Positions 1 to 57,302 of a stretch of DNA of 64,000 nt are shown piece after piece. Origin of the DNA: a virus; the IMG/VR virus record IMGVR_UViG_3300027996_002186, positions 310,001-374,000 of that record; one strand, written 5' to 3'. The position numbers and the translations under genes were made by a program. The notes under the pieces are model-generated. The model made no database searches. It was not told the origin of the DNA and saw nothing but the letters and a program-made list of their open reading frames with translations. Numbering within the stretch: the first letter of the stretch is position 1; each line of letters starts with the position of its first letter.

Positions 1-162
1 TGGTTTAATATCTGTCAGTTCAACTGATATTAAATCATCTGATATATCTCCACCAACCTTTGATATTACGCTTATAAGATCCGGTGAAAAATAAAGAAAA
101 GATTCATTCACTAAACTCTCTAGTAACAAGTCTTCTTTAAATTTATTATACTTACTAATCAT
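1..162 (-). CDS. Partial protein with capsid-targeting-like N-terminus
   Basis: The open frame starts at the ATG complementary to 160-162 and runs off the left edge, so only 54 residues are visible. The N-terminus, MISKYNKFKEDLLLES followed by LVNES, has the amphipathic, Lys/aromatic-rich pattern ending in LxES seen in the other putative capsid-targeted proteins here, with two possible processing Glu residues. A TTAATATATA motif lies 5 nt upstream of the start, the arrangement found at other members. The visible part beyond the leader is not recognised. The assignment as a packaged protein is inference. Confidence 0.6.
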   Translation of the reverse strand, partial: MISKYNKFKEDLLLESLVNESFLYFSPDLISVISKVGGDISDDLISVELTDIKP

Positions 163-167
163 AATTC

Positions 168-177
168 TATATATTAA
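168..177 (-). promoter_or_regulatory. Late-promoter-like motif TTAATATATA
   Basis: On the minus strand TTAATATATA is followed by five bases and then the ATG at 162. The same motif and near-identical spacing recur before several capsid-targeted genes. It resembles the single TATAAATA element of T4 late promoters, but this is inferred from recurrence only. Confidence 0.45.
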
Positions 178-228
178 CTTTGTTGATTCAAAATATTTGC
201 TTATCTTTATAAATAACAAAATATAAAT

Positions 229-714
229 ATGGAACTTATAAATTTAAAGAAACCTTTCGTTATAGTACTTATTGGACCGCCACTTTCAGGTAAAACAACT
301 TGGATAAGAAATAACTTTCCAGATACGGAAGTTATTAGCCGAGACGAAATACTTATGGAGGTTTATGGTTCCAGAAATTACTCAGAAGCTTTTAAGAATG
401 TGGACCAAAGAAATGTTGATAAAGTTCTTAAAGAAAGATTGGTTAATGCTGATAAAGAAATGAAGAATACTATTATTGATATGACTAATATGAGTTCTAA
501 AAGAAGAAGAGGAAACTTAGACTACTTCTCAGATGATTATTTCAAATTAGGAGTAATATTCCCAATTTTAAAGGATGAGGAATATGAAAGAAGAAATAAA
601 AAGAGAATTGAAGAAGAAAATAAAGACTTACCAATGCACATCGTTAAAAGGATGATATCACAATATCAAAATATTAAAGAAGATGAAGGATTTGATAAGA
701 TAATTTCTTTATAA
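229..714 (+). CDS. P-loop kinase, T4 Pnk kinase-domain-like
   Basis: This 161-residue protein has a Walker A motif GPPLSGKTTW at residues 16-25, an SRDE motif like the NRDD of T4 polynucleotide kinase, a DMTNMSSKRRR segment matching the DTNLNPERR lid region, and a C-terminal helix like the end of the Pnk kinase domain. The phosphatase half of T4 Pnk is absent, and the length fits a lone kinase domain. Likely reaction: phosphorylation of 5'-OH nucleic-acid ends, which together with the RNA ligase at 48129 would allow repair of cleaved tRNA. A TATAAATA sequence lies at 208-215 just upstream. A generic nucleotide or other AAA_33 kinase is the alternative. Confidence 0.6.
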   Translation: MELINLKKPFVIVLIGPPLSGKTTWIRNNFPDTEVISRDEILMEVYGSRNYSEAFKNVDQRNVDKVLKERLVNADKEMKNTIIDMTNMSSKRRRGNLDYFSDDYFKLGVIFPILKDEEYERRNKKRIEEENKDLPMHIVKRMISQYQNIKEDEGFDKIISL

Positions 715-763
715 AGAAACTGAAAATATATTACTTTAAGGTGATTTATATTGCCTTAAAGTC

Positions 764-1199: not shown

Positions 1200-1706
1200 A
1201 TGCGTATTAAAGGGGTATATGAATTTTTCGATGATGATGATCTAAAATCACAATTCGAGATCCCACATCTAAGAGGTGAAATGGGTGACGAAATTAGTAA
1301 ATGGAAAACATTTGCTGAACCTTTAGGTGATGAAACGCCAAAATCCTTTCTAAATAAAATAGCATTTAAATTTCCCGTACTTAAAAGTTTTCACCAAGAT
1401 GTGAAAACAACTGATGATAATGTTGAAATATATTGCTTTTATGATTACTCACAAGAAGTTTGTGAAAATGGTAATGAATATTATGTGCAGTTAGTTATAT
1501 CATATGATATAAAAACCAAAGAATACTTCATAAACATTGTTATAAGAAACAAAGATGATTACGAAGACCAAAGTAAATGGAAGAGGTATGATGTTGAAAC
1601 TAAAGATATTACTCAAGCTTATGGATTAATCGAATCCTTTTTAACTAGTTGTATAAAACTAAATGTTATAACTCCTGAGCAAAAATCTGCTTTACTATCA
1701 AACTAA
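1200..1706 (+). CDS. Hypothetical protein, first gene of a three-gene late operon
   Basis: 168 residues, no recognised family. The start is fixed by the motif 4 bases upstream. Its own N-terminus (MRIKGVYEFFDDDD) only weakly resembles the capsid-targeting pattern, but its stop codon overlaps the ATG of the next gene (TAATG at 1704-1708), which does carry it. Co-transcription with two putative capsid-targeted proteins suggests a virion or injected role; this is inference. Confidence 0.65.
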   Translation: MRIKGVYEFFDDDDLKSQFEIPHLRGEMGDEISKWKTFAEPLGDETPKSFLNKIAFKFPVLKSFHQDVKTTDDNVEIYCFYDYSQEVCENGNEYYVQLVISYDIKTKEYFINIVIRNKDDYEDQSKWKRYDVETKDITQAYGLIESFLTSCIKLNVITPEQKSALLSN

Positions 1707-2143
1707 TGAAACATATTAAAACATTCGAAAGTAAATGGAATTTACCTCAAAATAAGAGGTTAATAGTTCAGGGATCATTTAATAAATCTAACTTTACTCC
1801 AGCAACTGATAAAGTTAATTTATCACAAATATACCAATATATTATAATTGAAACCGAGGGAGGTAATATTATAACAATTGATAAGAGTGGTGTTCTTGAT
1901 ATTTGGATGAATGATGATTCTGGTGTTACTTCTGCTATCAGAAAAGCACTCGATAATATAAGTGACGAAACTTATGATGATATATATTTTGAGGATTTCG
2001 AAGATTTTAAGTCATATGAATATATAGTGAATTTGTTAGATTACAATCCTATAAACTTCCAAGAGATTGAAAATATTTTGATAGACCACGGTTATAGTGT
2101 TGATAACATATGGGGAGCTATTGATAATTTACCACAAAAATAA
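1706..2143 (+). CDS. Putative capsid-targeted protein
   Basis: 145 residues starting MKHIKTFESKWNLPQ. The first nine residues match the shared leader of this phage (Lys/His, Ile/Leu, Lys, aromatic, then FES), with predicted processing after Glu8. The mature part is acidic and ends in DNLPQK; no known domain is recognised. It is translationally coupled to the gene before it (TAATG overlap) and followed after 6 bases by another leader-bearing gene. Likely packaged in the head by analogy with T4 internal proteins; the function after delivery is unknown. Confidence 0.65.
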   Translation: MKHIKTFESKWNLPQNKRLIVQGSFNKSNFTPATDKVNLSQIYQYIIIETEGGNIITIDKSGVLDIWMNDDSGVTSAIRKALDNISDETYDDIYFEDFEDFKSYEYIVNLLDYNPINFQEIENILIDHGYSVDNIWGAIDNLPQK

Positions 2144-2149: not shown

Positions 2150-2656
2150 ATGAAATACATAAAACCATATATTATTTTTGAATCAAAAGAATTATCTGAA
2201 TATTTTGATATTTTCATAAAAAGTGATATCATCGATGATGATAATTACGTAAATAGTTTACGTCAAAACAATCTTTGGTTTAGAGAAATAAGTCTTCAAG
2301 ATTTCATGGGGAGTAAATATAAAAATTTCAGACAAAAGAGCGATTCAGTAAGAAGAAAGGAATTTAAAAAGTATACCGTCTCATCTACACCATATTCTCG
2401 TGCTAGACAGAAAGAAAATTGTTTATGTGTGCAAATTGGATCATCCTTTAATATAGATGATGTTGAAATTTATATCAGAAGAATGTTAGATTATGCTAAT
2501 GAAAATGGATATTCTTATGAAGTTAGAAAAGAATTACAAGCTAGTCGAAAAAGTATAGATATAACAAATCTAATTAATCGAAGACTCAAACGTAAGAACA
2601 ACAGGGTTAATACACAGAAGATTCTATCTATTCAAATTTTATTCTATAAAGAATAA
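2150..2656 (+). CDS. Putative capsid-targeted basic protein
   Basis: 168 residues starting MKYIKPYIIFESKELSEYF: the leader ends IFES, with a predicted cut after Glu11. The rest is markedly basic, especially toward the C-terminus (NRRLKRKNNR), which suits a DNA- or RNA-associated head protein. No catalytic motif is recognised. It closes the 1200-2656 operon; after it the window becomes non-coding. Confidence 0.65.
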   Translation: MKYIKPYIIFESKELSEYFDIFIKSDIIDDDNYVNSLRQNNLWFREISLQDFMGSKYKNFRQKSDSVRRKEFKKYTVSSTPYSRARQKENCLCVQIGSSFNIDDVEIYIRRMLDYANENGYSYEVRKELQASRKSIDITNLINRRLKRKNNRVNTQKILSIQILFYKE

Positions 2657-3090: not shown

Positions 3091-4020
3091 AGAAGTTACT
3101 CAACGGAGTAACATATGTTCTTTGAAATGTTAAATACACAGAAACTCGACTTCGGTCTTAGAGTTCTTCGGAACAGAGTGGATGTAGGGCGGCTTATAGT
3201 CCTTAAATAAACCACGAAAGTGGGATAAAGTGGATACAATGTGTAAAATGTGTCTGCGGCTCGAACCTAGTTTGAGCTCGAGTAAGCAAGTGAGATATCA
3301 CCAATCTTGAAGTACCGAGGGTAACTCCGTAGGGAAATGGATTCGTGACTGGGCAATTTGTAGGTGTTCAGTTGAGGTCGGAAGACCAATAAGAATAACT
3401 CATAGAGATTATTACAAGAAGTGTTGACTATCCGGTTAATACCATTGTGTGTCTCAATCTGAGAGGTATCTCAAAGTCGAAAGACAATTCTTCGTACAGG
3501 TGGTGCTGTTGTAGAACATTAATCTCTCTACCAAGAGAGTAGATTGTAGCAGTCTAACAAACGTACAGTTGTGATGAAGATATCTTAAATGGTTGTGGTG
3601 GAGGCATCACACGGAGAAGTCCAGTATTCTTGAGACCAAAAATTTTGAGAGCTGAGAGGTAACCACTCCTTCGAAACAATCTACAAACACTTAAATTTAA
3701 TTTTAATTCAAAACTAAAAATAAATCGAAAGTGTTACCTAGTTACTAGTGAAAGGTGACTACTTAGTCGTGAATCGTTCACGGCCACGAAAGCTCGAAAG
3801 GCGGACGTGATTTCACTGAAAAACTTATAGGGTGTCGAAACCCGAATCAGGATGCGAATCTTGAATAAGCAGAGTAAGTGGAGAGTAATTAGTAACTCAA
3901 GAAGTGGTTAGTCTAACTAACCGTCACTGACAAGATACCGTTCACAAAAGAAACGGTGGATAAGTTGGGAATTAATAATCCAACTAAAGACTTGTCACTT
4001 AAAGATGTAATCTCAGTCTT
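3091..4020 (+). ncRNA. Large hairpin-rich non-coding RNA (GOLLD/ROOL-like context)
   Basis: About 0.9 kb with no usable open frame and visibly higher GC than its surroundings. Clear local structures: GTTACTC/GAGTAAC with AACG loop (3095-3112); cUUCGg tetraloops at 3148-3157 and 3163-3174; CCAC-GAAA-GTGG (3212-3223); GCTCGAA/TTTGAGC (3259-3277); GTC-GAAA-GAC (3476-3485); CTCTCT-ACCA-AGAGAG (3524-3539); CGTGAA/TTCACG (3768-3782); GGTTAG/CTAACC (3906-3922). TGACAAG (3928-3934) pairs with CTTGTCA (3991-3997) around ACCGTT/AACGGT and AGTTGG/CCAACT hairpins, a three-way junction. Size, phage origin and tRNA neighbours match what is known of the GOLLD and ROOL giant RNAs. I cannot assign the family from memory; the exact ends are guesses. 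Confidence 0.6.
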
Positions 4021-4028
4021 TTTTATAT

Positions 4029-4123
4029 GGTCAGTTCGTCTAGTGGTGGGGTCTCTTTTAAGATACTCCGAGGACAGTAACCTTTTCGGGTTATAAACAT
4101 TGGTTCGAATCCAATACTGACTA
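4029..4123 (+). tRNA. tRNA-like element 2 with an extra hairpin
   Basis: GGTCAGT (4029-4035) pairs with ACTGACT (4116-4122), then A and CA. The T-arm is perfect: ATTGG, TTCGAAT, CCAAT (4099-4115). As in element 1, the D-arm halves TTCGTCTAGTGG and AGGAC are separated by an inserted hairpin (GGGGTCTC...GATACTCC), and the GTAACC-TTTTCG-GGTTA hairpin is nearly identical. The inserted hairpin sequence differs between the two elements, while the acceptor pairing is kept by compensating changes. Whether it can be aminoacylated is unclear. Confidence 0.5.
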
Positions 4124-4202
4124 CAAAGTTTTCGTAGTGGTTAACTTCTCTTTAATTAGAGGGTCTGTTTTGAACAGTTTTGATTACCTAACATCATCTA
4201 TA

Positions 4203-4239
4203 AACCCATCAATAGATTTATTTCATTGATGGGTTTTTT
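4203..4239 (+). terminator. Intrinsic terminator of the RNA block
   Basis: AAACCCATCAAT pairs with ATTGATGGGTTT, followed by a T-run (4234-4239). This closes the non-coding transcript before the gene at 4287. The 4124-4202 stretch before it has two small hairpins (CTCT/AGAG and CTGTT-TTG-AACAG) and nothing else recognised. Confidence 0.85.
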
Positions 4240-4286
4240 ATTTATATACAATTTGTAAACTTTTCCTTTTAAAATAAAATAATAGT

Positions 4287-5320: not shown

Positions 5321-5338
5321 ATTAAAATAACAAATAAT

Positions 5339-7453: not shown

Positions 7454-7474
7454 TTAAAAAAACATCAAAAAATT

Positions 7475-7506: not shown

Positions 7507-7532
7507 GTATATAAAAAATAAATAAAAAATCA

Positions 7533-8114: not shown

Positions 8115-8184
8115 TAAATTATGGAGAATAATAAAAACTATTATTTAAAATGAAAGTAGCGACAATAAAATAAAATTTAAGATA

Positions 8185-31605: not shown

Positions 31606-32763
31606 TTATGAAAATTTGCTAATTAGTACTGAATTCAAGGCTGAGTCTCGTTGTGTTCTTACTCCCTCGGCCAATATCGATTTTGATAACATCTCATATT
31701 CTATATCACTAACCTTACAAAGTTTTAATTCTGCGTGATATAATGTAATAATATCCCCGTTATCTTCATCCACGTAGTCTTCCATCCTCAAACCACCAAT
31801 TGGTCTAAACTCAGTAGTTTCATATATTCGTTCTAAACATTCATATAATGTTTCGAGACCTGTTTTTTCAAGTGTTATATTTATAAATTTAATTGGATAA
31901 GCTTTTATATTACCATTTAATATATTCTCATAAAATAAATCCCAAAAATTAGATGTTTTATCTTCTATGGAGTCATATTTACGAGAGAAAGTGGTTTGAT
32001 TTGTGGTGGGTTTCAAATCACTTAAAAAAAGGTATTCTACGCTACTATTTCTGAGTTTAAGTTTATTAGATTCCTCTACTGTCATAATATATTCTTTCCA
32101 ATATTCATCAGCCAATCCAGGTATTGGTTTATTTAACCAATCATCTTCAAAAGACATATCATATAACATCTGTGATCTTCTTTCTCTTGTTAAATCTGCT
32201 GATGGGAAGAAAGCATACCCACCTTGATCTACACCAAAGTTGTGGTGGTATAATTCATCAGTTATATCATAGAAAATTTCTTCAATATCGACATCCAATG
32301 GGAATTCATCTTTAGTTACAACCTTTGATTCATTTATACTCTCAGATACTTTATTTAACTTGAAATAAAGTTTTATGAAATTAGTCTCGTCTAAATTCAT
32401 CAAGTGTTTAGGTAATAAATCAATCCCCATTCCAAAATCCTTATATGTTTGTCTAATGTTATGTTTATCATCATAATTAAATGCTATAAGAGTATAATTT
32501 TTAGGATTCATATATTCTATTAATCTCATAAAAGCATCTTCATATTTCTTTACCTTAAATACTTTATTGATTTGATCCAAAAAAGTAAGCACAGGGTCAA
32601 ATTCTTCACCAATAGTTATTATAACATTACCATCTACTCTAGCATCAACCGAAACTGGTATACTATCATCTGATAATTCGGATAATATATCATTAACATC
32701 AGATATGGTATCATAATCCATATAGATTGATTCAAATAATTTATATTTCTTTAAGTATTTCAA
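31606..32763 (-). CDS. Capsid-targeted polyprotein A
   Basis: 385 residues. Leader MKYLKKYKLFES, predicted cut after Glu11. Residues ~15-138 form a domain shared with the neighbours at 32760 and 49433 (I..IL.ELSDD...V.V, then R-[LI]-[IE]-[DE]-Y). A second site, SESINESK at 140-147, precedes an unrelated ~240-residue C-terminal part with SVEYLFLSDLKPT and FRPIGGLRMEDY segments that I do not recognise. Last of three overlapping genes (each ATG overlaps the preceding stop) headed by 35353. Processing by a prohead protease into two polypeptides is inferred. Confidence 0.65.
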   Translation of the reverse strand: MKYLKKYKLFESIYMDYDTISDVNDILSELSDDSIPVSVDARVDGNVIITIGEEFDPVLTFLDQINKVFKVKKYEDAFMRLIEYMNPKNYTLIAFNYDDKHNIRQTYKDFGMGIDLLPKHLMNLDETNFIKLYFKLNKVSESINESKVVTKDEFPLDVDIEEIFYDITDELYHHNFGVDQGGYAFFPSADLTRERRSQMLYDMSFEDDWLNKPIPGLADEYWKEYIMTVEESNKLKLRNSSVEYLFLSDLKPTTNQTTFSRKYDSIEDKTSNFWDLFYENILNGNIKAYPIKFINITLEKTGLETLYECLERIYETTEFRPIGGLRMEDYVDEDNGDIITLYHAELKLCKVSDIEYEMLSKSILAEGVRTQRDSALNSVLISKFS

Positions 32764-34046
32764 AATTTTAATAATATTTTTAATGTATAATCTTCTATAT
32801 CCCTATCATCATCGAATTGTCTATCTCCTCTACTCTTCCCGAAAATAACCTCACCGTGGTCCATTGTTGGTAATATTGTTGGTAAAACTTCATCTAACCC
32901 AGATTCTAATTTCCTTAAATTCATCGGTACTGATTTATACGGGTACATACCAACAATACCCTGATCAGTATTACCTATATCAATATAAACACAAGGAACA
33001 TACATAGTTAATATGTTTGCTGGGCTATAATTACGCAATTTTTGTAAATCATATTTATTTTTAACTATGATATCACTATTTCTAACAACCTCATAGTTCA
33101 TAATATCAAAGTTAACACATTGGAATTTTTTATCAGTTACATATTCCTCAGCTTCATCTTGTCTGATATAAACATCATTTTTATACCCACCTATTTTAAA
33201 TGTCGGTAACATAATTGATCTAATTATATCTCTCATTATCATATAAAACCTACTATCATCTTCTGTATCATAAACAGGCATTGTTCCATTATATTTATTC
33301 TTAATTGGTTCATCTTTTTTATAATAATCACCATAAGTTATAGCAGTTGTGACCCATTTACCCTTTTCAGTTGGTATTTCATCCCATATATCATATAGTC
33401 TATCATTAACATAATCTATATCAACTTTCTTCATAGAATTCCAAGTTTTAGTCAAATAATCTTCGATTATACCATACCATTTATCACCAATAAAATGGTT
33501 TGTCCATTTTTTAATATCAGACTCACTTAATTTATTATTCTTCATATTCTGATAATATAAATCATTATAAAAATCAAAAATGCTATATCTTTCTTCGTTG
33601 GATTCATTTAAACTCTCATCCATTGAATTTAATAAATCACCATAATCATCCTCTGAATAAATAAGTAATGATATACCTGGATAACTAAACTCTTCACCAC
33701 CATAAACATCGATGAATCTATCTAATGACATCCAATCTTGTTCCTTTGTAACTTCTACATCAACACCATATCCTTCATCAGCTCTCCAAACATAATCTTC
33801 TATTCTTTTAACAGCATCCTTTATATCATCCCATCTCCAAATCTCATCATTCTTTCTATAAATACCAACACATACCGATCTTATTGAGTCTGAAAACATA
33901 GGTGGTGTGTAATTAGTCTCATCTATAACTACACCAAATCCATCATCAGATAATTCTAATACAATATCCTCTAATTCTCTTTTTAGATTGGAGAATCTAG
34001 TAGAGTCTTCTGATTCAAATAGTTTATATTTCTTTAAGTATTTCAC
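32760..34046 (-). CDS. Capsid-targeted polyprotein B
   Basis: 428 residues. The first 12 residues, MKYLKKYKLFES, are identical to those of polyprotein A. The shared domain follows (ELEDIVLELSDDGFGVVIDE, RIEDYVWRAD), then ESLNESN at 144-150 as the internal site, and a ~275-residue C-terminal part with no known motif (KGKWVTTAITYGDYYKK, SRFYMIMRDI). The stop overlaps the start of polyprotein A. Same leader with different cargo is the pattern here. Confidence 0.65.
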   Translation of the reverse strand: MKYLKKYKLFESEDSTRFSNLKRELEDIVLELSDDGFGVVIDETNYTPPMFSDSIRSVCVGIYRKNDEIWRWDDIKDAVKRIEDYVWRADEGYGVDVEVTKEQDWMSLDRFIDVYGGEEFSYPGISLLIYSEDDYGDLLNSMDESLNESNEERYSIFDFYNDLYYQNMKNNKLSESDIKKWTNHFIGDKWYGIIEDYLTKTWNSMKKVDIDYVNDRLYDIWDEIPTEKGKWVTTAITYGDYYKKDEPIKNKYNGTMPVYDTEDDSRFYMIMRDIIRSIMLPTFKIGGYKNDVYIRQDEAEEYVTDKKFQCVNFDIMNYEVVRNSDIIVKNKYDLQKLRNYSPANILTMYVPCVYIDIGNTDQGIVGMYPYKSVPMNLRKLESGLDEVLPTILPTMDHGEVIFGKSRGDRQFDDDRDIEDYTLKILLKF

Positions 34047-35353
34047 TTTCTAATTACTTTAATTCTTTCTGTTTGATACTTCATTATATCAACATCTTGA
34101 TGCTCTGTTAATAAATCAACAATACCTTGATACATTTGTATTGTTATTTTACAATCTGTAATAGCATCGTGATAACCACTCATATTAATACCAAGTACTG
34201 GTCCTATTTTAGACATAGATGATGATATTAATCCATTATCTCTTGGTGAAGTACCAATAAAATCTATTTTCTCTTGAAAAGATGGGTCAGTCTCAGCTAA
34301 CTTCTGTAACAATGGTAAAAAGTATAATTGTATCAACATCTTAGTATCAAATACTTCATTCACAATCTTATTACCATATCTACCACTCAACATAGCCATA
34401 TCAAATGCCGCGTTTTGTGCAATTAATAAACAAGGTTCGTATTCACCTATGAATTTAAAGAAATCATTAACAACAGTTTCTTCGTCTTTGTACTTATATC
34501 CGCCACTACCATAATGGTTGAATCCTAAAACCCATTTAGTTCTATCTTCTGGTTCGTTATATTTAGACTTAGTATCATTTGTTAGTTTTATTTTCTCATC
34601 AAATTGTCCTAACTCCTTGAATTCGTTATTATCAAAATCACATTCAGTTACTAAACAAGATACTTGTGTTAATTGTTCTTTCTTTGGACCATTTAATCCT
34701 GTTGTTTCCACATCAACAAAAATCCAAGGCATATCAGTTTTAGAATCTAACCAAGAAAGTATTTCGGGTATTGATTTATACCACATCTTATTTTCATTTA
34801 TTGATTCTGAAACGTTATTAACTTCAAATTTGAATTCCTTACCATCAGCATGTGAATAAGTAACTTTATCAATGTTCTTAACATTATATTTATAATCGGG
34901 TTTTAGATATTTCTTACCCATACCTTTTTTAACATAAGCAATTGTTATATGTGGTTTATATTCTGGGTATTCATTTGAATTTGGTAATTCGGATAATTCA
35001 TCAAAAAGATTTTGTAATGATCCCTGTGGGTTAATATTGAATTTAACAACATCAAATTTATCATTCTCAAATATATCAACACCATCAACTTCTATATTTA
35101 TATCACCTTCAAAGGTATCGAATATAGACTTAACTTCCTCATTTGATACTTCCTTATGTAAACCATATAAAAGTGTAAGGTGTGGTCTCTTTTGTACACC
35201 ATACGTTGAATCACCGTCACTTTCATAGATGTCTTCTGGGTCTATCCAAGATGTTATTTCTTCCCAATTATTAACTGGTACGTCAACCATAACACAACCA
35301 TATTCATAGCCGTTTATTGATTCTTTAATAAATTCTTTATATTTCTTTAACAT
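34043..35353 (-). CDS. Capsid-targeted 2H phosphoesterase-DEDDh exonuclease polyprotein
   Basis: 436 residues. Leader MLKKYKEFIKES (cut predicted after Glu11). Residues ~15-180 are a 2H phosphoesterase: RPHLTLLYGL (H58, T60) and KPHITIAYV (H135, T137), the two HxT motifs of LigT/CPDase and of the anti-CBASS enzyme Acb1. SESINENK (183-189) marks an interdomain site. Residues ~205-430 are a DnaQ-type exonuclease: FVDVETTGL (D214, E216), NAAFD (D318), HDAITD (H395, D400), all catalytic residues present. Substrates could be cyclic oligonucleotide signals and RNA or DNA ends. First gene of its operon, with AAAATATATA 6 bases upstream. Confidence 0.8.
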   Translation of the reverse strand: MLKKYKEFIKESINGYEYGCVMVDVPVNNWEEITSWIDPEDIYESDGDSTYGVQKRPHLTLLYGLHKEVSNEEVKSIFDTFEGDINIEVDGVDIFENDKFDVVKFNINPQGSLQNLFDELSELPNSNEYPEYKPHITIAYVKKGMGKKYLKPDYKYNVKNIDKVTYSHADGKEFKFEVNNVSESINENKMWYKSIPEILSWLDSKTDMPWIFVDVETTGLNGPKKEQLTQVSCLVTECDFDNNEFKELGQFDEKIKLTNDTKSKYNEPEDRTKWVLGFNHYGSGGYKYKDEETVVNDFFKFIGEYEPCLLIAQNAAFDMAMLSGRYGNKIVNEVFDTKMLIQLYFLPLLQKLAETDPSFQEKIDFIGTSPRDNGLISSSMSKIGPVLGINMSGYHDAITDCKITIQMYQGIVDLLTEHQDVDIMKYQTERIKVIRK

Positions 35354-35923: not shown

Positions 35924-36193
35924 TTAGTTTAAGTTGTAGTTAAATATTGGTGTTTCATCTTCATAATCATCATCCTCAGCGTCTGTATCGAAATCAAATC
36001 CCATACTTACTAAGTAACTCATAACTTCATCAGTTAATTTCATGTTAGCATTTCTTTCTTCCATATAGTTGTCAAACATACCAACAGTAAATTGACCCCT
36101 TTCTTCTCTAAGTTTTATTAACTTAGGTAATAGGTCTTTAGCAATGTCTTCTGCTAAGTTTGAATGTGATTCAAATGTTTTTAAATGCTTCAT
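35924..36193 (-). CDS. Putative capsid-targeted small acidic protein
   Basis: 89 residues. Leader MKHLKTFES, cut predicted after Glu8, then an 80-residue acidic mature part ending DDDYEDETPIFNYNLN. No known motif. It overlaps the C-terminus of the next upstream gene by 23 bases and is last in the 37353-35924 operon. Confidence 0.62.
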   Translation of the reverse strand: MKHLKTFESHSNLAEDIAKDLLPKLIKLREERGQFTVGMFDNYMEERNANMKLTDEVMSYLVSMGFDFDTDAEDDDYEDETPIFNYNLN

Positions 36194-36620
36194 TGTCTAA
36201 CTCTGTTTTAATTTTCTCAAATGGTTTGTGGTATTGAGAGTCAATTACTTCAAAGAAGTTTTTCCAACCATCTCCCCTATAATTAAACAACAAGGTACTT
36301 TCTTTGTCTTTACTATTAAATATGTATCTTAACCTTGAACCTACTTTTTTCCGGGTGTAGAAATTAAGCAATGGAATTTCAGCCATTAATTGGTTTGAAC
36401 CCATACCCTTAATGAACTCAACTTCAATCGGTCCAGTAATATATTCTTCTTCTCTAGGTGGTGAATCTGGATGAAAAATCGTTGCTCCGTATCTTCGGTT
36501 TAGGTCATCGATATTAATTTTATAATCGAAATTAAGATTCTTCGTCAATATATTTGTTTCTACCTTTTCACCACCATAAGATGATTCGTTAAATTTTTCA
36601 AATTTATTTAAATATTTCAT
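36171..36620 (-). CDS. Putative capsid-targeted protein
   Basis: 149 residues. Leader MKYLNKFEKFNES, cut predicted after Glu12. The mature part has strands around NLNFDYKINIDDLN and LLFNYRGDGWKNFF; no family recognised. ATG overlaps the stop at 36617 (ATGA). Confidence 0.62.
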   Translation of the reverse strand: MKYLNKFEKFNESSYGGEKVETNILTKNLNFDYKINIDDLNRRYGATIFHPDSPPREEEYITGPIEVEFIKGMGSNQLMAEIPLLNFYTRKKVGSRLRYIFNSKDKESTLLFNYRGDGWKNFFEVIDSQYHKPFEKIKTELDNEAFKNI

Positions 36621-36907
36621 TGTTTAATCTTTGTAACTTTTTTACCACCGAATGGTCCACTTAAATGTTTTAAGTTCCAAGATGGTATGAATTTCTTATT
36701 AGCTTTTTCATAATCTTCATAAGATTCAATGCCTGTATCAATAGGATTATGAATATATTGTATATTAGCACCTTCTTTATTCATATCAGAGATTCTATCA
36801 CCGATATCAGTACCTTTAGTTAACTTTCTTAACCTTTTAAGTTGGTCAACAGTGTGTTGCCTTGGTAGTGATTCGTTTATCTCACTAAATCTTTTTAAGT
36901 ATTTCAT
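36617..36907 (-). CDS. Putative capsid-targeted small basic protein
   Basis: 96 residues. Leader MKYLKRFSEINES, predicted cut after Glu12. The ~84-residue mature product is basic (RQHTVDQLKRLRKLTKG, ending GGKKVTKIKQ), the size and charge of T4 internal proteins I-III. Overlapping start/stop with both neighbours. Confidence 0.63.
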   Translation of the reverse strand: MKYLKRFSEINESLPRQHTVDQLKRLRKLTKGTDIGDRISDMNKEGANIQYIHNPIDTGIESYEDYEKANKKFIPSWNLKHLSGPFGGKKVTKIKQ

Positions 36908-37353
36908 AATTTGTTTATTTCATCTATTTTTACTTGTAGTGTATCTATTTTTGATTTTAGACCACTTGTTATATCTTCTTTAGATATTTTAGTGACAATC
37001 CAATCACCATAATAATCACCACCATCATAAACTCTATCATCTTTTGGATCCATAATTATTTTGAAAAACTCTCCTTCAAAAAACAAAAAATTTCCTAAAT
37101 CTGATTTATACATTTTTTGAATTCTGTAACCATCATCATTAATTATAAAGACCTTACCTTCTTCTTTAGCTCTTTTCATACAATATTCAGCTAAACTTTC
37201 TAAGTTAATTCCTGGTGTTCTTGGATTTGACCAAACCTTTTTAGATATTTCTTTATATTCATCTTCTCTTGAAGGAACATTACCATATTCAGATGCTTCA
37301 CCATTATCAATATAATCTTTAACATTTTCGTTAAATTTCTTTAAATGTTTCAT
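36904..37353 (-). CDS. Putative capsid-targeted protein, operon head
   Basis: 149 residues. Leader MKHLKKFNEN, cut predicted after Glu9. Mature part: mixed alpha/beta with FIINDDGYRIQKMYKSDLGN and a helical end. First of four overlapping leader-bearing genes. A TTTAATATATA motif lies about 20 bases upstream, farther than at the leaderless-type starts. Confidence 0.62.
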   Translation of the reverse strand: MKHLKKFNENVKDYIDNGEASEYGNVPSREDEYKEISKKVWSNPRTPGINLESLAEYCMKRAKEEGKVFIINDDGYRIQKMYKSDLGNFLFFEGEFFKIIMDPKDDRVYDGGDYYGDWIVTKISKEDITSGLKSKIDTLQVKIDEINKL

Positions 37354-41131: not shown

Positions 41132-41548
41132 CTACGGTTTTATTATGATATCTTTCATTAGTTTACCCCATTTGAATTGTATCATACCATAACATAATAT
41201 TTTACCATCATATTCATAATCAGGTTCTTTAGCTAAATCATATCTTATATCTGAGTATTTATCTTGTATTCTATTAATACAAGTTTCGATTTCTTTATAT
41301 ATTTCTAAATTTTTTTCGGTGTTTTTTATAAAGTCTGATACTTTACCATGTGCCGTACCGATACTAAATCCAGTTAATTTTTTATTTAATTTGTGTAAAG
41401 TGTTTAGGTCAAAATTAACATAACACTCTTTACCACCACTATATTCAAAATCAGATCCATCATCTATAAAATCAGCAAAAACTAATTTTATATAATCTGA
41501 TACTTCATCATTATCAACAGATTCGTTATATTTATTTAGATGTTTCAT
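41132..41548 (-). CDS. Putative capsid-targeted protein
   Basis: 138 residues from the ATG at 41548 (MKHLNKYNESVDNDE); a longer frame to 41626 exists but overlaps the gene at 41602. The leader predicts a cut after Glu8. TTTAATATATA ends 4 bases before this ATG, which supports the start. Mature part: helix, FSIGTAHGKVSDFIKN segment and a C-terminal strand pair; unknown function. Confidence 0.68.
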   Translation of the reverse strand: MKHLNKYNESVDNDEVSDYIKLVFADFIDDGSDFEYSGGKECYVNFDLNTLHKLNKKLTGFSIGTAHGKVSDFIKNTEKNLEIYKEIETCINRIQDKYSDIRYDLAKEPDYEYDGKILCYGMIQFKWGKLMKDIIIKP

Positions 41549-48128: not shown

Positions 48129-49394
48129 ATGAAGAAATTGTCAAAATATTTAGAATTTATAAATGAAAGCTCAGATTACAAGGGTTATTCAATTCCTTCT
48201 TATAAGGAAGCTGTTGAGTTATGCTCAAAAAATGCTGCTTTTTATGAATCTAAAATGATTGTTGATGGATTTAATGTATCTGTATTCAATTACAGACTAA
48301 CAAGTTATAAGGATTTTGCTAACCCTCTTGATCACAAACCAGAATTAAAAGGTTATGAAATGAGGGGGTTAACATTCATTTTTAATGAAGATGGTACATT
48401 ATTCAATAGATATGTGTTGCTTGAAAAATTCTTTAATATAAATCAAGTTCCGGAATCAATGTATTCCATTGTTAAGGATTATAAAATAAAATATGTTAAT
48501 AATAAAGAAGATGGTTCAATAGCGACATTCGTGAAATTACCAAATGGTAAAATTGTTGGTAAATCTAAAATGGGGTTTGATAATGACCAATCAAATGGTA
48601 TTAATAGAATATATCAAAATGATACTGAAATAAAGACATTAGTTAACTGGTGTTTAGATAATGATATAATACCTATATTTGAATATGTCGCTCCTCATAA
48701 TAGAATTGTATTGAGATATACACAAGAGGAATTGATACTTTTAAGATTAAGAGATAATAAAACCGGTAAACATATCGATATACAAGACCACTTAGATAAG
48801 ATTGGTTCGACTAAGATTGCTCCATTCGAAGATGATCACCAAGGTAACTTGGATAAGTTAATTGAATTGGTTGCTAATCAAGTTGATAAAGAGGGATGTG
48901 TTGTACAAGCTGAGGATAGTGAAGGTAGAGATTTCTTCTTCAAATTAAAGACTCCTTGGTATTGTGAGCGTCATGGTTTATTAACTAATGATATTTACAG
49001 AGAACACATTATAATAGGATATATCTTAGATGATAAGATTGATGATATTCTTAGTCAAATACCAGAGGATGAAGTTGAAGCACATACAAGAATAAATAAG
49101 ATTATTGTAATAGTTAAGAGAGCTATAGATGATAAGATGGAAGATATCAAGAAGTCATATCAGGTATTTCTTGATATGGGGGAAGACAGAAAAGAGTATG
49201 CTCTTACACATATGAAGGCAGAACCTAACTTCTGTTATGTTATGAATTTAGCAAACGGTAAAGATCTTTATGATATAGCTAAAGAGCACGTAAGAGATAA
49301 GACTAAGAGGTTGATGATATCAAGAGATTGGTTACAGAAAATAGACCCAACACTTTTCTTCCAAGACCCGGAAGAAGATGAAGAGAATAATTAA
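48129..49394 (+). CDS. rnlA: Capsid-targeted RNA ligase (T4 Rnl1 type)
   Basis: 421 residues. Leader MKKLSKYLEFINES with a predicted cut after Glu13. Then a T4 RNA ligase 1 homologue: FNYRLTSYKDF, GYEMRGLTFIF (Arg79-Gly), RYVLLEKFFNINQVPES, KEDGS with nucleotidyl Lys126, FEYVAPHNRIVL and FFKLKTPWY (K-x-K-x-x-W). T4 Rnl1 is 374 residues; the excess is mainly the leader and a longer C-terminal helical domain. Joins 5'-phosphate and 3'-OH ends in RNA, repairing tRNA cut by anticodon nucleases. Confidence 0.9.
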   Translation: MKKLSKYLEFINESSDYKGYSIPSYKEAVELCSKNAAFYESKMIVDGFNVSVFNYRLTSYKDFANPLDHKPELKGYEMRGLTFIFNEDGTLFNRYVLLEKFFNINQVPESMYSIVKDYKIKYVNNKEDGSIATFVKLPNGKIVGKSKMGFDNDQSNGINRIYQNDTEIKTLVNWCLDNDIIPIFEYVAPHNRIVLRYTQEELILLRLRDNKTGKHIDIQDHLDKIGSTKIAPFEDDHQGNLDKLIELVANQVDKEGCVVQAEDSEGRDFFFKLKTPWYCERHGLLTNDIYREHIIIGYILDDKIDDILSQIPEDEVEAHTRINKIIVIVKRAIDDKMEDIKKSYQVFLDMGEDRKEYALTHMKAEPNFCYVMNLANGKDLYDIAKEHVRDKTKRLMISRDWLQKIDPTLFFQDPEEDEENN

Positions 49395-49432: not shown

Positions 49433-50116
49433 ATGGAATATCTACAAACATATAAACTATTTGAAAGTGATTCTTCAATGCCGGAATTATCCGAACAAGA
49501 ATTAAAAGATGATGAACTTTATAGTTATATAGGTGATATATGTCAAGAATTAAAAGATGATGGGTTAGAAGTTAGAATAAAAATAAGTGATTGTTCTAAA
49601 GTAGGTAATATGTTATGTGATGATGTGGTTTCTATCTGGACAAACGTTCCATCATCAATTGATATATCTAATAGGATTAATGATATTATTGAATATAGCG
49701 AGATAAAGGAAACCTATGATAGATTGATTGAGTATTTTGCATCAAAGGGGTATGATAATTATGAATTGAAAAGATTTAATTTTGAAGATGGTTCTATTTA
49801 TTTGGATTTTGATGGTGATGAGAATAAAAAATCAGAATCATTTAAGATAGAATTTTACAAATCAGTTAATCATATAATAGAATCTAAAACGACATCTAAA
49901 TTAAAATTTAACAAACAATCTAGAAAGAAAGGTGCTAAGACTGATGTTTATAACGTAGTTAAGAATGGTACTACAATAGGTCAAGTTAAATGGTATAGTA
50001 GATTACGTGGTTATGGTTTCTTGCCACCTACTGGCGATGAAGCAGAAGTAAAGGAATTTGTTAAAGAAGTTTCTAGACTACGTAGAGAAGAAATGAAAAA
50101 GAACAAAAAGAAGTAA
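49433..50116 (+). CDS. Capsid-targeted polyprotein C
   Basis: 227 residues. Leader MEYLQTYKLFES (compare MKYLKKYKLFES in A and B). Residues ~15-145 are the domain shared with A and B (DICQELKDDGLEVRI, TYDRLIEYFASKGYDNYEL). IIESK at 148-152 is the internal site. The C-terminal ~75 residues are basic, with VYNVVKNGTTIGQVKWYSRL and a Lys-rich tail, suited to nucleic-acid binding. The stop overlaps the next start. Confidence 0.63.
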   Translation: MEYLQTYKLFESDSSMPELSEQELKDDELYSYIGDICQELKDDGLEVRIKISDCSKVGNMLCDDVVSIWTNVPSSIDISNRINDIIEYSEIKETYDRLIEYFASKGYDNYELKRFNFEDGSIYLDFDGDENKKSESFKIEFYKSVNHIIESKTTSKLKFNKQSRKKGAKTDVYNVVKNGTTIGQVKWYSRLRGYGFLPPTGDEAEVKEFVKEVSRLRREEMKKNKKK

Positions 50117-52389: not shown

Positions 52390-53685
52390 TTAATCATGAC
52401 ATTGTAAATCACCATCATCATCCATATAACAACCATCGGTATCTCTGAATGTTCTATTTATATATAAATCACCATCTCTATCATTAGTTAACGACCCCAA
52501 CCAATGATCGAAGCTTAAATAACACATAGTATCCATATAAGGATATCTAGTCCATTTACCACCACTGCCGGTTAACTTAACAACCAAGACAGCAGATTTA
52601 CTAGTTGAACCATTTGTGATTTTTTCACTTGGATCCATGGTTTGTGATTTCTTATACCACCAGTTATTCTTCTCAGCATATTGTTTGAATAATTCAACAT
52701 CACTATCATTCGTTGTGTATATTCTATCCATAAATGTACCTTCTGTTCCGTCAATAGTAGCTTTCCATAATAACGCTCTACCCTTTATTTGATCTGACTT
52801 AAACACACCATTACCTTTAATTTCACCATCATCACCATATAAAATAACCATTTGAATTTCTTTTGTGTTGTTACAATACATATCAAAAAATTCACTAGGT
52901 GATTCAGCCATACAAGAACTATTCAAAACACCTCCACCATCAACATATCTATCTTCATTGCTATTATCATACCAATATGCTATATCTTCACCTTTAACAA
53001 TATCGAATTGTTTTAATACGTCCTGTGCGAAATCAAATGTGGCTTTATATGTATTTGTAAATTCTTCTATGTCTTTATCAAGAAATTCTAACCCAGATGC
53101 TTTTAACACAGCTCTAACTAATCTACCAACTTTAATTTTATTTCTTGATGTAGACCATATTTTAGAATTTTCTGATGAATCTGTTTCTTCCAATGATTCT
53201 TTATTAAGAACTGTTTTTCTAGGTGAGTCGGTATCATCTTCTTCAAATATAACATATATCTTACCAGATGACTCACTAATAGTTTCTCCTAAAATAATAC
53301 CAATAGTTTGGTCTACGGGTGCCCAAGGTTCTCCTGATGGCTTTTCATAACCAAGAGCTTCGAAAAGTTTATTATTACCATTGGAGTGTGTTAAATACCT
53401 TTGTGAATCTATAACTTCCCATAATTGTGGTTTATCCTTTAATATTTCTTGTGCTTTTCTATCTGGTGTGAATGAAACAGCATCCTTAGCATCAGTAATA
53501 TCAATATAGTTGTGTGAAATTTTCACATCTTTAGAATAAAGATTCAATAATTCGGATGCTATCTTATTTGATTTCATCTTATTCAATAAGTTAATAAACT
53601 TTTTAGAAAAAACCATTTTAGATTCTAGTAATAGCTCATAAGCTACTTTTTCTGTTATATAATCATTATATTTTAATAAACTCAT
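52390..53685 (-). CDS. Putative capsid-targeted protein with conserved Cys-Met motif
   Basis: 431 residues from the ATG at 53685 (MSLLKYNDYITEKVAYELLL); an upstream TTG-initiated frame to 53736 is less likely. The leader is longer than usual and ends LLLESK. The C-terminal half has VDGGGVLNSSCMAES, FFDMYCNNT, IQMVILYGDDGEI and GRALLWKATIDG with FMDRIYTT, a set I have seen in other large phage proteins of unknown role. A Cys/His/Asp protease-like site is conceivable but not shown. Confidence 0.6.
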   Translation of the reverse strand: MSLLKYNDYITEKVAYELLLESKMVFSKKFINLLNKMKSNKIASELLNLYSKDVKISHNYIDITDAKDAVSFTPDRKAQEILKDKPQLWEVIDSQRYLTHSNGNNKLFEALGYEKPSGEPWAPVDQTIGIILGETISESSGKIYVIFEEDDTDSPRKTVLNKESLEETDSSENSKIWSTSRNKIKVGRLVRAVLKASGLEFLDKDIEEFTNTYKATFDFAQDVLKQFDIVKGEDIAYWYDNSNEDRYVDGGGVLNSSCMAESPSEFFDMYCNNTKEIQMVILYGDDGEIKGNGVFKSDQIKGRALLWKATIDGTEGTFMDRIYTTNDSDVELFKQYAEKNNWWYKKSQTMDPSEKITNGSTSKSAVLVVKLTGSGGKWTRYPYMDTMCYLSFDHWLGSLTNDRDGDLYINRTFRDTDGCYMDDDGDLQCHD

Positions 53686-55060: not shown

Positions 55061-55093
55061 AATATTTTTTATTTTTTAATAATTTTATATACT

Positions 55094-56125
55094 TCATAAA
55101 GTGTTTAACATTTCTATCATCTCCTTCTGTGGGAATATATCAAATTTACCTGTTCTTACTTGTGTATTGTTTCTAAGACCACCATGACTAAACCACTTAA
55201 CATCATACTCAAACCATTGTTCGTCATAAATACCAGTCTCAATTTGTATATCCCATCTTTTTTTCAAATATAAAATAAGTTTTCTAGTACTTTCTATTTG
55301 AGCATCTGTATATCTTTCATAATGTGTATATCCTCTGAAAGGTTTATCTAACTCAACAACATCCTCATCATTAATAGGTTGATTAACATAATTATAATAT
55401 CTACCATCTTTACCTAATGTCAATGGTCCATAATTACATATCTCAATACCAATAGATTTTGAGTTTAATGCTTTACTTTTTGTGTGTGATATATCTAAAT
55501 GATAAGCCCAGTGTCTATCATCAAATGATCTTAATACTTTACCATCCCATAATATATCATTTTTAGATGAAGAACTTCTACCTATTACAAATTGTGTTCC
55601 AACTCTTAATGGTTTCGGATTACCCTTTTTATCTAAAATAGCATTACCCTTTTTATCTTTTTGGAAATCTCTTTCCCAACCACCGATAGTCCAATCTGGT
55701 CTAGACCCACCAGCAGTGTGGTGTAACCAAATTGTATCTTTTACTGTTTCTGTTTTATAATATTCATCATCTTCTAAAAAACAATCATATATTGTTAATG
55801 AATCCTCGCCGATATAAGATATTTTAAATGGTATATTTTCATTTCTAGGAGTTGGAGTGATAACAACATCAGTCTCAATACCCTTTGACTCTTTTTCTTT
55901 TTTATTTTCTAAATGGTTAGTTATTTGACTCCAAGTTTGTGGACCAATAACACCATCAGCTTTTATACCAACAGACCTTTGATAATTAGTAACTGATACT
56001 AATGTATTTTGAGTGAAGTTCCCATCAATTATATTTTTGTGATATCCATATTCTTTTAATCTAGTTTGTACCCAACGGACATCATCACCGGACATTTTCA
56101 GCATTAAAATTCTCTTTAGTTTCAT
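55094..56125 (-). CDS. Endolysin 2 paralogue with altered zinc site
   Basis: 343 residues, same architecture as the next gene: PG_binding_1 (MSGDDVRWVQTRLKEYGYHK, DGVIGPQTWSQI) and Amidase_2 (IWLHHTAGGSRPDW, HWAYHLDISHT). At the C-terminal zinc position it reads RNNTQVRTGKFDIFPQ where the paralogue has THTNVRKDKYDCFPQ, so the second zinc His is Asn and the Cys is Ile. It may be inactive, or bind but not cut. A 33-base gap separates the two. Confidence 0.85.
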   Translation of the reverse strand: MKLKRILMLKMSGDDVRWVQTRLKEYGYHKNIIDGNFTQNTLVSVTNYQRSVGIKADGVIGPQTWSQITNHLENKKEKESKGIETDVVITPTPRNENIPFKISYIGEDSLTIYDCFLEDDEYYKTETVKDTIWLHHTAGGSRPDWTIGGWERDFQKDKKGNAILDKKGNPKPLRVGTQFVIGRSSSSKNDILWDGKVLRSFDDRHWAYHLDISHTKSKALNSKSIGIEICNYGPLTLGKDGRYYNYVNQPINDEDVVELDKPFRGYTHYERYTDAQIESTRKLILYLKKRWDIQIETGIYDEQWFEYDVKWFSHGGLRNNTQVRTGKFDIFPQKEMIEMLNTL

Positions 56126-56640
56126 AAACTATTATTATTTTTATATCTTTCTTTTTGCTTATTATCTAAATATGCTTTCAAATCAGCATAAGTAACATTT
56201 CCTGGGTTTTGAAGTATATTTTCAGCAATACCATCTGCCTTAACTTCAAGCTTCTTAAGCTCTTCATTCTTAACCCTTTCCTCATACTGATCTTCAACAT
56301 TCTTTAGAATGTGTCCTAGATAAAAATCTATATTATTTTTGATTACCATAATTTTATCGAAAGTATATAAAAATTCCTCGAAGGTATCACCATAATAAAC
56401 AGCGAAGGTATCATCTTTTATAAAATGATCAGCATAGAATTTTATATCACCAACATTTCCTTGGCCATATATCGTAGCTTTGTATTGATTAAAATAGAAA
56501 TAAGTGAATTTATCGTTTGGGTTAAAAGTTCTTTTACCATTTTTCTCAACAGTAGCAACTAATCCAAGATTTATCCTAAAATAACTTGATCTTTTAAATT
56601 CTGTTATAGTTTGATATGATGAAACAACGTGTAAAGCCAT
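56122..56640 (-). CDS. Hypothetical, possibly virion protein
   Basis: 172 residues: beta-rich first half (RINLGLVATVEKNGKRTF, FYFNQYKATIYGQGNVG), helical charged second half. No membrane helix, so it is not a holin. Overlaps the start of endolysin 2 by 4 bases. Confidence 0.55.
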   Translation of the reverse strand: MALHVVSSYQTITEFKRSSYFRINLGLVATVEKNGKRTFNPNDKFTYFYFNQYKATIYGQGNVGDIKFYADHFIKDDTFAVYYGDTFEEFLYTFDKIMVIKNNIDFYLGHILKNVEDQYEERVKNEELKKLEVKADGIAENILQNPGNVTYADLKAYLDNKQKERYKNNNSL

Positions 56641-56732
56641 AGGTTATTTATTAAAAAAAATGTGCTTCCTAATGTATATGATTAAAAATAATGATAATTA
56701 TCAACGATTGTAGAATTTTATGTGTGAAAATA

Positions 56733-57302
56733 TTACTCAGTCTCGATTGCAAACTCATCACTATCATCACCAAATTTATCATCAAGTTCTATCTTTAAAT
56801 CGATTAAGAACTCCTCATCTATATCTTTGATATCAATATTTTTACTAATTTGACCAATTATTTCAGTAAGTTTATCTAAGCTATATTTCTTAAATTTAAT
56901 ATAACATTTTTCTATATCATCACTATCGAAATTTTTCTCTGGATCTTTAGGTATAGCTTCTTTAATATCTATCATTAATATAAGAGTATATGTATTTTCA
57001 TCATCCATAAATTTAATTGTTAATGAGTCATACATTTTAGAATATTTTGATACTTCTGAACTTAGTAAAGAAACACCCAAATCTTCAAAGGTCATTTTAT
57101 TACTATCCTTCATTGATATTTTTTTAATCTTTGTTGGATCTTCTTCTGCTTCTTCTTCTGGGTTATCTATATCACCATCTTGAAAAACAAACATTTTATC
57201 TATCTTTAATTTGATTTGTGATAATGCCGTTGCTATATAACTCTCAGGAGTTTCAGCAAATAACTCTTCTTTTATAAAATCTAAATATTTTCTAACTATC
57301 AT
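56733..57302 (-). CDS. Putative capsid-targeted acidic protein
   Basis: 189 residues from the ATG at 57302 (MIVRKYLDFIKEELFAETPE); an in-frame ATG at 57338 is less likely because TTTTAATATATA sits 4 bases before 57302. Leader YLDFIKE fits the pattern with Glu-Glu instead of Glu-Ser. The mature part is very acidic (DGDIDNPEEEAEEDPTK, ending DDSDEFAIETE). Function unknown. Confidence 0.6.
   Translation of the reverse strand: MIVRKYLDFIKEELFAETPESYIATALSQIKLKIDKMFVFQDGDIDNPEEEAEEDPTKIKKISMKDSNKMTFEDLGVSLLSSEVSKYSKMYDSLTIKFMDDENTYTLILMIDIKEAIPKDPEKNFDSDDIEKCYIKFKKYSLDKLTEIIGQISKNIDIKDIDEEFLIDLKIELDDKFGDDSDEFAIETE

Follow-up and report, generated by a model that had tools for sequence, protein, structure and literature searches.

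A short N-terminal leader on many huge-phage proteins as a candidate capsid-targeting signal

Phage T4 is described as directing proteins into its head with a capsid-targeting sequence of 10 residues, of which 4 and 7 act mainly in targeting and 8 and 10 in processing, the protease gp21 cutting after L/I-x-E (PMC9026906). The T4 internal proteins are described as diverse defence proteins in which only the targeting sequence is conserved, with ~1,000 molecules packed (PMC3012670). At least ten internal proteins are reported among T4-related phages, and Ip1-3, which have the leader alone in common, each inhibit a different type IV restriction system (PMC12373910). In the jumbo phages phiKZ and SPN3US, a protease related to gp21 is reported to cut head proteins after Glu, and many of these proteins to be injected (PMC13282480, PMC10052503). 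Here we analyse a 64,000-nucleotide stretch (the window) of virus record IMGVR_UViG_3300027996_002186, in which many proteins begin with a short basic, aromatic leader ending in Glu that a first-pass annotation had interpreted as a capsid-export signal.

We consider it very likely that the leader is a capsid-targeting propeptide and that it belongs to a greatly expanded T4-like internal-protein system. This assessment draws on features read directly from sequence: the leader itself and its statistics; a site in common with the capsid protein, in that the leader motif recurs as the best site in a relative's capsid protein; a protease gene in relatives, lying beside the capsid gene and encoding a scaffold-like tail; and a Glu kept at the junctions of fused proteins. 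The export-signal interpretation is further supported by leader positions 4 and 7, which match T4 mutagenesis, and by some distant RNA ligases that are leaderless.

The window is part of a 312,709-base virus record (hereafter its own record), which is probably part of a genome. Its RNA ligase relatives are LR745206.1 (634 kilobases, kb), LR756502.1 (642 kb) and LR756504.1 (636 kb). Complete phage genomes of 634, 636, 642 and 735 kb, the largest in the Mahaphage clade, have been described with Bacteroidetes as predicted hosts (PMC7162821).

The leader and its distribution

The first-pass annotation listed 15 leader-type N-termini in the window, and all were found at their starts; the one at 162- was read from the own record, its gene running out of the window. 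They are given below with lengths in amino acids (aa) and ↓ marking the predicted cut.

1..162, minus strand: 5' end of a leader protein gene continuing past the window; leader MISKYNKFKEDLLLESLVNE↓S (codons 103-162), a weaker variant form
1706..2143, plus strand: leader protein, 145 aa; MKHIKTFE↓S (1706-1729)
2150..2656, plus strand: leader protein, 168 aa; MKYIKPYIIFE↓S (2150-2182)
31606..32763, minus strand: leader protein, 385 aa; MKYLKKYKLFE↓S (32731-32763)
32760..34046, minus strand: leader protein, 428 aa; MKYLKKYKLFE↓S (34014-34046); shared domain at residues 23-88
34043..35353, minus strand: leader protein, 436 aa; MLKKYKEFIKE↓S (35321-35353)
35924..36193, minus strand: leader protein, 89 aa; MKHLKTFE↓S
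36171..36620, minus strand: leader protein, 149 aa; MKYLNKFEKFNE↓S
36617..36907, minus strand: leader protein, 96 aa; MKYLKRFSEINE↓SLPRQ
36904..37353, minus strand: leader protein, 149 aa; MKHLKKFNE↓N
41132..41548, minus strand: leader protein, 138 aa; MKHLNKYNE↓S; LR745206.1 has two or more homologues with a leader
48129..49394, plus strand: T4 RNA ligase 1-type RNA ligase, 421 aa; leader MKKLSKYLEFINE↓S (48129-48167)
49433..50116, plus strand: leader protein, 227 aa; MEYLQTYKLFE↓S (49433-49465); shared domain at residues 30-106, weaker second copy at 118-160
52390..53685, minus strand: weaker variant leader protein, 431 aa; MSLLKYNDYITE↓K; form retained in its LR745206.1 homologue, MILLKYNEYITE↓K
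56733..57302, minus strand: weaker variant leader protein, 189 aa; MIVRKYLDFIKE↓E; form retained in its LR745206.1 homologue, MKIRKYIEFITE↓D

The leader is 8-20 residues long, basic and aromatic, and its site is mostly [FNY]-E↓[SN]. The leader at 35353- looks like the common one displaced by one residue. While every one of the roughly 15 proteins first proposed exists, that number undercounts the genome, given that a narrow pattern alone occurs in 20 places in the 312-kb record (see below).

To quantify the leader, we used a mechanical gene set of longest non-overlapping open reading frames (ORFs), some of whose starts and ORFs are therefore wrong. In the window, 86 ORFs of 60 aa or more were scored. 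Leader starts were sought in the first 45 codons of each ORF, yielding 2,400 candidate starts in LR745206.1. A strict expression modelled on the first-pass examples selected 66 of 918 LR745206.1 ORFs as compared to none of 2,345 internal methionines. We then built a scoring matrix from 59 LR745206.1 leaders of this strict set, keeping the window out of training. Above threshold were 126 of the 918 ORFs versus 3 of the 2,345 internal methionines, and 11 of the 86 window ORFs (1706+, 2150+, 32763-, 34046-, 36193-, 36620-, 36907-, 37353-, 41548-, 48129+ and 49433+). The other four listed proteins (35353-, 53685-, 57302- and 162-) carry leader variants.

Since the matrix derives from a pre-chosen motif, we repeated the test using the cleavage site alone. 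Selecting [ILVFYMT]xE[SN] with Glu at residue 8-13 recovered 96 of 918 LR745206.1 ORFs, against 11 of 563 control pseudo-starts placed at residue 101. These 96 ORFs displayed features outside the selection, namely K2 (50 of 96), Y/H3 (53), L/I4 (58) and F/Y7 (58). The leader motif started at residues 6-10 in 86 of 4,590 positions, versus ~3-5 per 1,000 in the other bins printed. Searching DNA for the narrow pattern MK[YH][LIMF]Kx[YF] gave 20 places in the own record, 53 in LR745206.1, 57 in LR756502.1, 33 in LR756504.1 and 13 in LR756500.1, while the reversed pattern gave 0-2 per record and none in the own record.

Among the 126 LR745206.1 leaders, the residue before the cut (P1) was Glu in 119, and the residue two positions upstream of it (P3) was F in 34, L in 23, I in 21, T in 17, Y in 8 and A in 8. 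Codon use in the leaders was close to that in the rest of the genome (Lys AAA 0.76 versus 0.74, Glu GAA 0.72 versus 0.72, His CAT 0.71 versus 0.72), with the largest shift at Leu TTA (0.65 versus 0.51). This near-normal usage indicates that the peptide is conserved, with selection at the protein level. Many leader proteins were small (median 161 aa), and leader genes often lay side by side, forming 48 adjacent pairs where 17 were expected (maximum 29 in 2,000 shuffles). Sec/Tat signal peptides contain a core stretch of ~10 hydrophobic residues and are cut at small-x-small; by direct reading, leaders with 8-20 charged or aromatic residues and a terminal Glu do not fit this description.

As a separate observation, Lak-B5 (L144) and the 735-kb LR756501.1 (L142), of each of which ~22 kb was viewed, contain the starts MKSVSKTVKRALNE↓N and MENLNDYKQFNE↓N, respectively, which suggests possible leader consensuses of their own.

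Predicted cleavage site, head protease and fused proteins

In LR745206.1, LR756502.1 and LR756504.1, a protein of ~700 residues with an S77-like domain (PF03420, E-values of 1e-4 to 4e-6, below the cut-off) is encoded directly before the capsid gene. The phrog_207 head maturation protease model matched the LR745206.1 protein with E 4e-30, and matches were obtained in six of seven records searched, the exception being the window's own record. The motifs GEFDHP and SSR, which presumably hold the catalytic residues, were present in 83 of 83 relatives' protease proteins. The tail is scaffold-like, having 11-12 [YN][ILVM][AS]E motifs at mostly 14-residue spacing. Two other approaches to this protein were set aside. 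Pfam Peptidase_S77 (PF03420) found nothing in the own record and only sub-cut-off matches in relatives, phrog_207 being the sensitive model, and solved structures offered a single, uninformative match of the tail to 8qkd (E 0.02).

When the C-terminal part of the leader matrix was run along the LR745206.1 capsid protein, the best of 557 positions was INE↓N at residues 42-45 (Glu44; score 8.4, next 4.1), which closes a 44-residue N-terminal stretch. The corresponding [ILM][NHY]EN was found in 80 of the 80 capsid proteins extractable from 83 loci. In the LR745206.1 protease protein, the top sites were LNE↓S after the protease domain and a site at residue 454. Moreover, two small proteins resemble the capsid protein's arm, and a leader swap was evident: in MRYLKPYKKFIE↓NADGSSTSGMGAVSSAQPGGLAGTT, a leader precedes the same arm as lies behind the capsid protein's own site (FHSINE↓NAYANASNVSGMGAVVAAQPASLAGTT). 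In the stretch compared, MRYLKPYKKFIE↓NADGSSTSGMGAVSSAQP corresponds to capsid FHSINE↓NAYANASNVSGMGAVVAAQP, and the leader occupies the place of the capsid protein's N-terminal domain.

Short gp23-type capsid-like pieces were also scattered in the window (25589-25696, plus strand; 59618-59809, minus strand), elsewhere in the own record (293136-293294, L005) and in L001 (983-1501). They cover successive parts of the capsid profile (159-194, 197-259 and 302-354) plus a piece like the N-terminal arm. LR745206.1 too has capsid-like pieces, besides its intact capsid gene. Such pieces may be remnants, interfering fragments or something else.

We surveyed fusions by printing 126 grouped alignments, from which 26 rows in six families were kept by eye (8 LigT-exonuclease, 3 SLPRQ, 3 YSIFDFYND, 1 window 31606-, 1 L133 and 10 NFACT-R). 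The 100 dropped rows comprised contig-edge fragments, start-choice differences, low-complexity matches, other paralogues, and the capsid and protease genes themselves. Each of the six families contains a leader protein that exists both on its own and as the rear part of a longer chain, where Glu lies directly at the joint or no more than one residue away. The junction was exact in the LigT-exonuclease, SLPRQ and L133 families and in most NFACT-R rows. In five of the six families the front of the tag (MKxLxx[YF]) is lost and the Glu retained.

The exonuclease provides the fullest series. As a separate gene its leader ends at the position of the internal site, reading MKILKYSELINE↓NKMWYKS (L122), MKILKFEQINE↓NKMWYKT (L125), MKHIIGYNQLNE↓NKMWYKT (L127) and MKFLRYLNE↓NKMWYKT (L128), with L123 and L124 read only from MINE↓NKMWYKT onward. 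The fused phosphoesterase-exonuclease of the window, LR745206.1 and L116-L121 retains just [IVL]NE↓NKMW. Similarly, the NE↓SLPRQ family is a fused C-terminal part in LR745206.1, LR756502.1 and L116, and separate in the window (36617..36907) and L108. Sites in the remaining families were LNE↓S near YSI[FY]DFYND, SESINE↓SKVV, TNE↓STEEDVH, and [FI]NE↓[SG]KKxKFP of the NFACT-R protein. Cutting after the Glu by the prohead protease is suggested jointly by the capsid INE↓N, the phrog_207 protease beside the capsid gene, these fusion junctions and the exchange of leader and capsid arm.

Three adjoining window genes exhibit such arrangements. The 31606..32763 protein contains the shared domain twice (residues 19-88 and 159-208) with an internal site, SESINE↓S (Glu145), between the copies, and the portion towards its C-terminus has a counterpart in LR745206.1 (446130-446621) and L130 that is a leader protein in its own right. 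In the 32760..34046 protein, the internal site SLNE↓S (Glu148) joins a part that elsewhere stands alone with its own leader (L130). The 34043..35353 protein begins with a 2H phosphoesterase (2_5_RNA_ligase2, Acb1-like, residues 30-143), in which HLT and HIT motifs were read and whose Pfam Acb1 score of 25.9 is just below the cut-off of 27; an RNase_T-type 3'-5' exonuclease (residues 211-407) follows the internal site SESINE↓N (Glu187).

A protein with an NFACT-R RNA-binding domain (PF05670, E 1.5e-16), encoded at 27509-27898 of L021, adjoins the capsid gene and has the leader-like start MIKKYKLFKE↓G. Homologues occur in L022, L057, L059, L063, L072, L074 and L083, and the protein is fused to the upstream protein in some relatives.

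Candidate cargo proteins and competing explanations

The listed proteins had been called unrelated, with nothing else in common, which is wrong in part: those at 31606-, 32760- and 49433+ have a common domain, and 162- and 53685- appear paralogous by eye. This 72-residue domain follows many leaders. A hidden Markov model found it in 42 proteins of LR745206.1 and the window, some with two copies, and in 36 of the 137 matrix-positive leader proteins of the two. Its AlphaFold2 model (mean predicted local distance difference test 85.8) has a helix-strand-strand-helix-strand order. No confident relative emerged from a fold search with this model, the best solved structures being Ohr/OsmC proteins (E 1.4e-3; template modelling score, TM, 0.51) and the further matches uncharacterised phage proteins (two at E 7e-4; TM 0.45-0.50), also not confident.

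Pfam matched 10 families in total across the 126 LR745206.1 leader proteins (including two NUDIX proteins, a nucleotide cyclase, an M15 peptidase, methyltransferase models and domains of unknown function), versus 88 across the 72 other window ORFs (including HSP70, ribonucleotide reductase, epimerases and glycosyltransferases); these are tallies of families, not of proteins, with overlap between related models. Known domains occur in two of the window's leader proteins, the RNA ligase and the phosphoesterase-exonuclease. PADLOC matched five families over the 126 proteins, the best being mad2 (E 2e-11, one protein) and the others E 3e-5 or weaker. Two side observations concern single LR745206.1 leader proteins: one matches the adenylate/guanylate cyclase catalytic domain (Pfam E 1.9e-19), although a packaged nucleotide cyclase would be odd, and one weakly matches PADLOC PycC. 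Elsewhere, a block of 21 ORFs at 7533-25572 of the window, with many sugar-nucleotide enzymes, glycosyltransferases and methyltransferases, resembles a surface-polysaccharide cluster within a phage genome.

Searching window ORFs against LR745206.1 with blastp gave matches for 10 of 14 leader candidates and 56 of 72 others, with median identities of 68% and 77%, respectively, implying that the cargo diverges somewhat faster. Orthologue searches returned 0 loci for 41132-, 1 for 49433+ and 4 for 32760-, so the payload's depth is low. The window RNA ligase is 84% identical to the LR745206.1 protein, 69% to that of LR756502.1 and 38% to that of LR756504.1. It carries a leader in the window, LR745206.1, LR756502.1 and L131-L138 (ending IKE↓G in L135) and is leaderless in LR756504.1, L140, L141 and T4. 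The proteins of LR756504.1, L140 and L141 start near the predicted mature end, while L139 and T4 have N-termini of another kind. Compared in this way, the leader appears to be a modular addition on the RNA ligase.

Several observations weigh against a capsid-targeting propeptide. The narrow pattern was not found in LR756501.1 (735 kb), Lak-B5, PTm1, PAU or MaF61, which implies that the consensus is clade-specific. P3 is frequently F, T or Y, unlike the L/I of T4, and the residue after the cut (P1') is E, G, A or D in 29 of 126 leaders; given this looseness, some leaders may stay uncut. Neither protease nor portal was found in the own 312-kb record, which has only short capsid-like pieces, whereas protease, portal and capsid gene are all present in the 634-, 636- and 642-kb relatives. 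The head module therefore probably lies outside the record, and we studied it in the relatives. Among fusions, the NFACT-R family keeps much of the tag front, several members having a Met that possibly serves as a start, and is thus weaker evidence; its member in L072 has the junction TE↓G rather than NE↓S. Junctions were placed only to within one residue in the 31606- and YSIFDFYND families and in L087, L089 and L093, and Glu was missing from the supposed junction in LR745206.1 451399 (40% identity), L086, L088 and L104 (37%). A general enrichment of internal cleavage sites in leader proteins also failed to appear: [ILV]NE[SN] occurred 3 times in their bodies (0.134 per 1,000 residues) against 39 times in other proteins (0.251), so that two-part cargo is the exception. 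Lastly, the case for packaging in this clade is built from genes rather than virion proteins, and injected and merely encapsidated proteins would look alike in sequence.

The leader might instead direct proteins elsewhere in the infected cell (a phage compartment, the membrane or a replication site), in which case its Glu end would not be a protease site. A short basic, aromatic N-terminus on many different proteins would suit any address tag, and P1' is not strict, but the same site is the best match in the capsid protein and one leader replaces that protein's N-terminal domain before the same arm. Five of the six fused families are without MKxLxx[YF] yet keep the Glu, which would be unexpected for an uncleaved N-terminal address, and we regard this explanation as improbable. 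We give still less credence to the shared start being an RNA or DNA element (translation-start, regulatory, or a recombination site spreading cassettes) with an incidental peptide. Leader genes are adjacent beyond expectation (48 pairs versus 17), as cassettes would be, but the codon use of the leaders is near that of the rest of the genome, leaders differ in length (8-20 residues), and fused proteins retain the site at places remote from any start.

A more serious competitor, though one we think unlikely, holds that the proteins are cut and packaged but act within the head, in the core, DNA packing or head-size control, and are mostly not injected effectors. The T4 core proteins gp22, gp67 and gp68 are described as cut by gp21 (PMC9026906), many leader proteins are small, and the two arm-like proteins would fit such a role. 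However, most leader proteins with a recognised domain are nucleic-acid or nucleotide enzymes (RNA ligase, 2H phosphoesterase, exonuclease, NUDIX, cyclase), the other recognised domains being methyltransferase, M15 peptidase and domains of unknown function, and there are very many different proteins for a structural core.

For the capsid-targeting propeptide, we infer docking, cutting, packaging and injection as follows. The N-terminus of 8-20 basic and aromatic residues would dock its protein on the scaffold core of the forming head, mainly via hydrophobic residue 4 and aromatic residue 7. At head maturation the protease, in one chain with its repeat-rich scaffold-like tail, would cut after the Glu, mostly at [FNY]-E↓[SN]. 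The freed proteins would remain in the head with the DNA around them, and would then enter the next host with that DNA. The cargo would comprise the RNA ligase, the 2H phosphoesterase-exonuclease, NUDIX proteins and the many proteins that have the small alpha/beta domain in common, and where it consists of two-part chains the protease should separate the parts. Scaling up the ~1,000 internal protein molecules of T4 to a head whose DNA content is almost fourfold greater would leave room for some tens of copies per protein if 126 different ones are packed. We lean slightly toward a broader proposal, a general-purpose cargo system in which over a tenth of all genes would bear a transferable address-and-cut tag and two-part chains would be separated in the head, so that each virion would deliver about a hundred different proteins (anti-defence enzymes, RNA repair and the radiated small-domain family) before phage gene expression.

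Most huge-phage genes lack an assigned function. Should the tag prove to load proteins into the capsid, it would assign a time and place of action (the host, in the first minutes of infection) to more than 100 unassigned genes per genome, and the leader genes would form a ranked list of candidate anti-defence proteins. The tag could also be used to load proteins of choice into very large heads and to probe cargo sorting by the protease. Under the broader proposal, few viruses would have a larger ready-made set of effectors, and this one could be read from the sequence by itself.

Comparison with known systems

As a yardstick, we applied the T4 form of the motif ([IL]xEA, Glu at 8-13) to T4 itself (150 of 169 kb), which picked 3 of 233 ORFs (IPII, IPIII and gp22) and 0 of 125 pseudo-starts. 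The huge-phage motif (S or N) picked 7 of 233 ORFs and 2 of 125 pseudo-starts. The start MKTYQEFIAEA, which the first-pass annotation had attributed to T4 internal proteins I-III, holds for IPII and IPIII, while IPI starts MKTFKEFTSTTTPVSTITEA.

Searches of open-licence PMC papers brought up no description of such a leader in huge phages. SPN3US is reported to have N-terminal propeptides of 111-254 residues in six of eight cases and of 20 and 24 in the other two, with motif A-x-E, and phiKZ to use S/A/G-x-E (PMC13282480, PMC10052503). The present leaders, with 8-20 residues and P3 mainly F, L, I or T (A in 8 of 126), differ from this type. The cultured Sphingomonas phage PAU (L146), whose host has since been assigned to Sphingobacterium (PMC3738902), offers another parallel: at least ten genes around its portal and protease (3131-10815 and 17375-17617) begin MK[ST][LI]xxL[YF]E (one LLFE) followed by A, S, N or D, albeit with another consensus (MKTLxxLYE). 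Two of these proteins are annotated 'internal capsid protein', for which the record states no basis, and one 'scaffolding'. Our literature search found no paper treating the PAU proteins as a class and, for virion proteomics of PAU or PAU-like phages, only a sodium dodecyl sulphate gel for MA9V-1. Tenacibaculum phage PTm1 has a similar protease-scaffold arrangement, annotated 'prohead core scaffolding protein and protease'.

The likeness to T4 IPI-III and Alt lies in a short N-terminal leader on proteins with differing mature parts (although 36 of 137 here have one common domain), in hydrophobic or aromatic residues at positions 4 and 7, as judged by conservation, and in the Glu that ends the leader. 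As in T4, the protease adjoins a gp23-type capsid protein in LR745206.1, LR756502.1 and LR756504.1. The consensus here is MK[YH][LI]Kx[FY]...[FN]E↓[SN], with P1 Glu in 119 and P3 L/I in 44 of 126 leaders, compared with (L/I)-x-E in T4, and the motif is of one class with that of this clade's capsid protein. The systems further differ in that protease and scaffold-like tail form one chain here, cargo includes two-part chains, RNA ligase 1 bears a leader here and is leaderless in T4, and about 100 or more proteins per genome carry the leader compared with four in T4. Overall, what these phages carry is very probably a capsid-targeting and processing system of the T4 kind, enlarged to at least 100 genes per genome and in part made as two-part chains.

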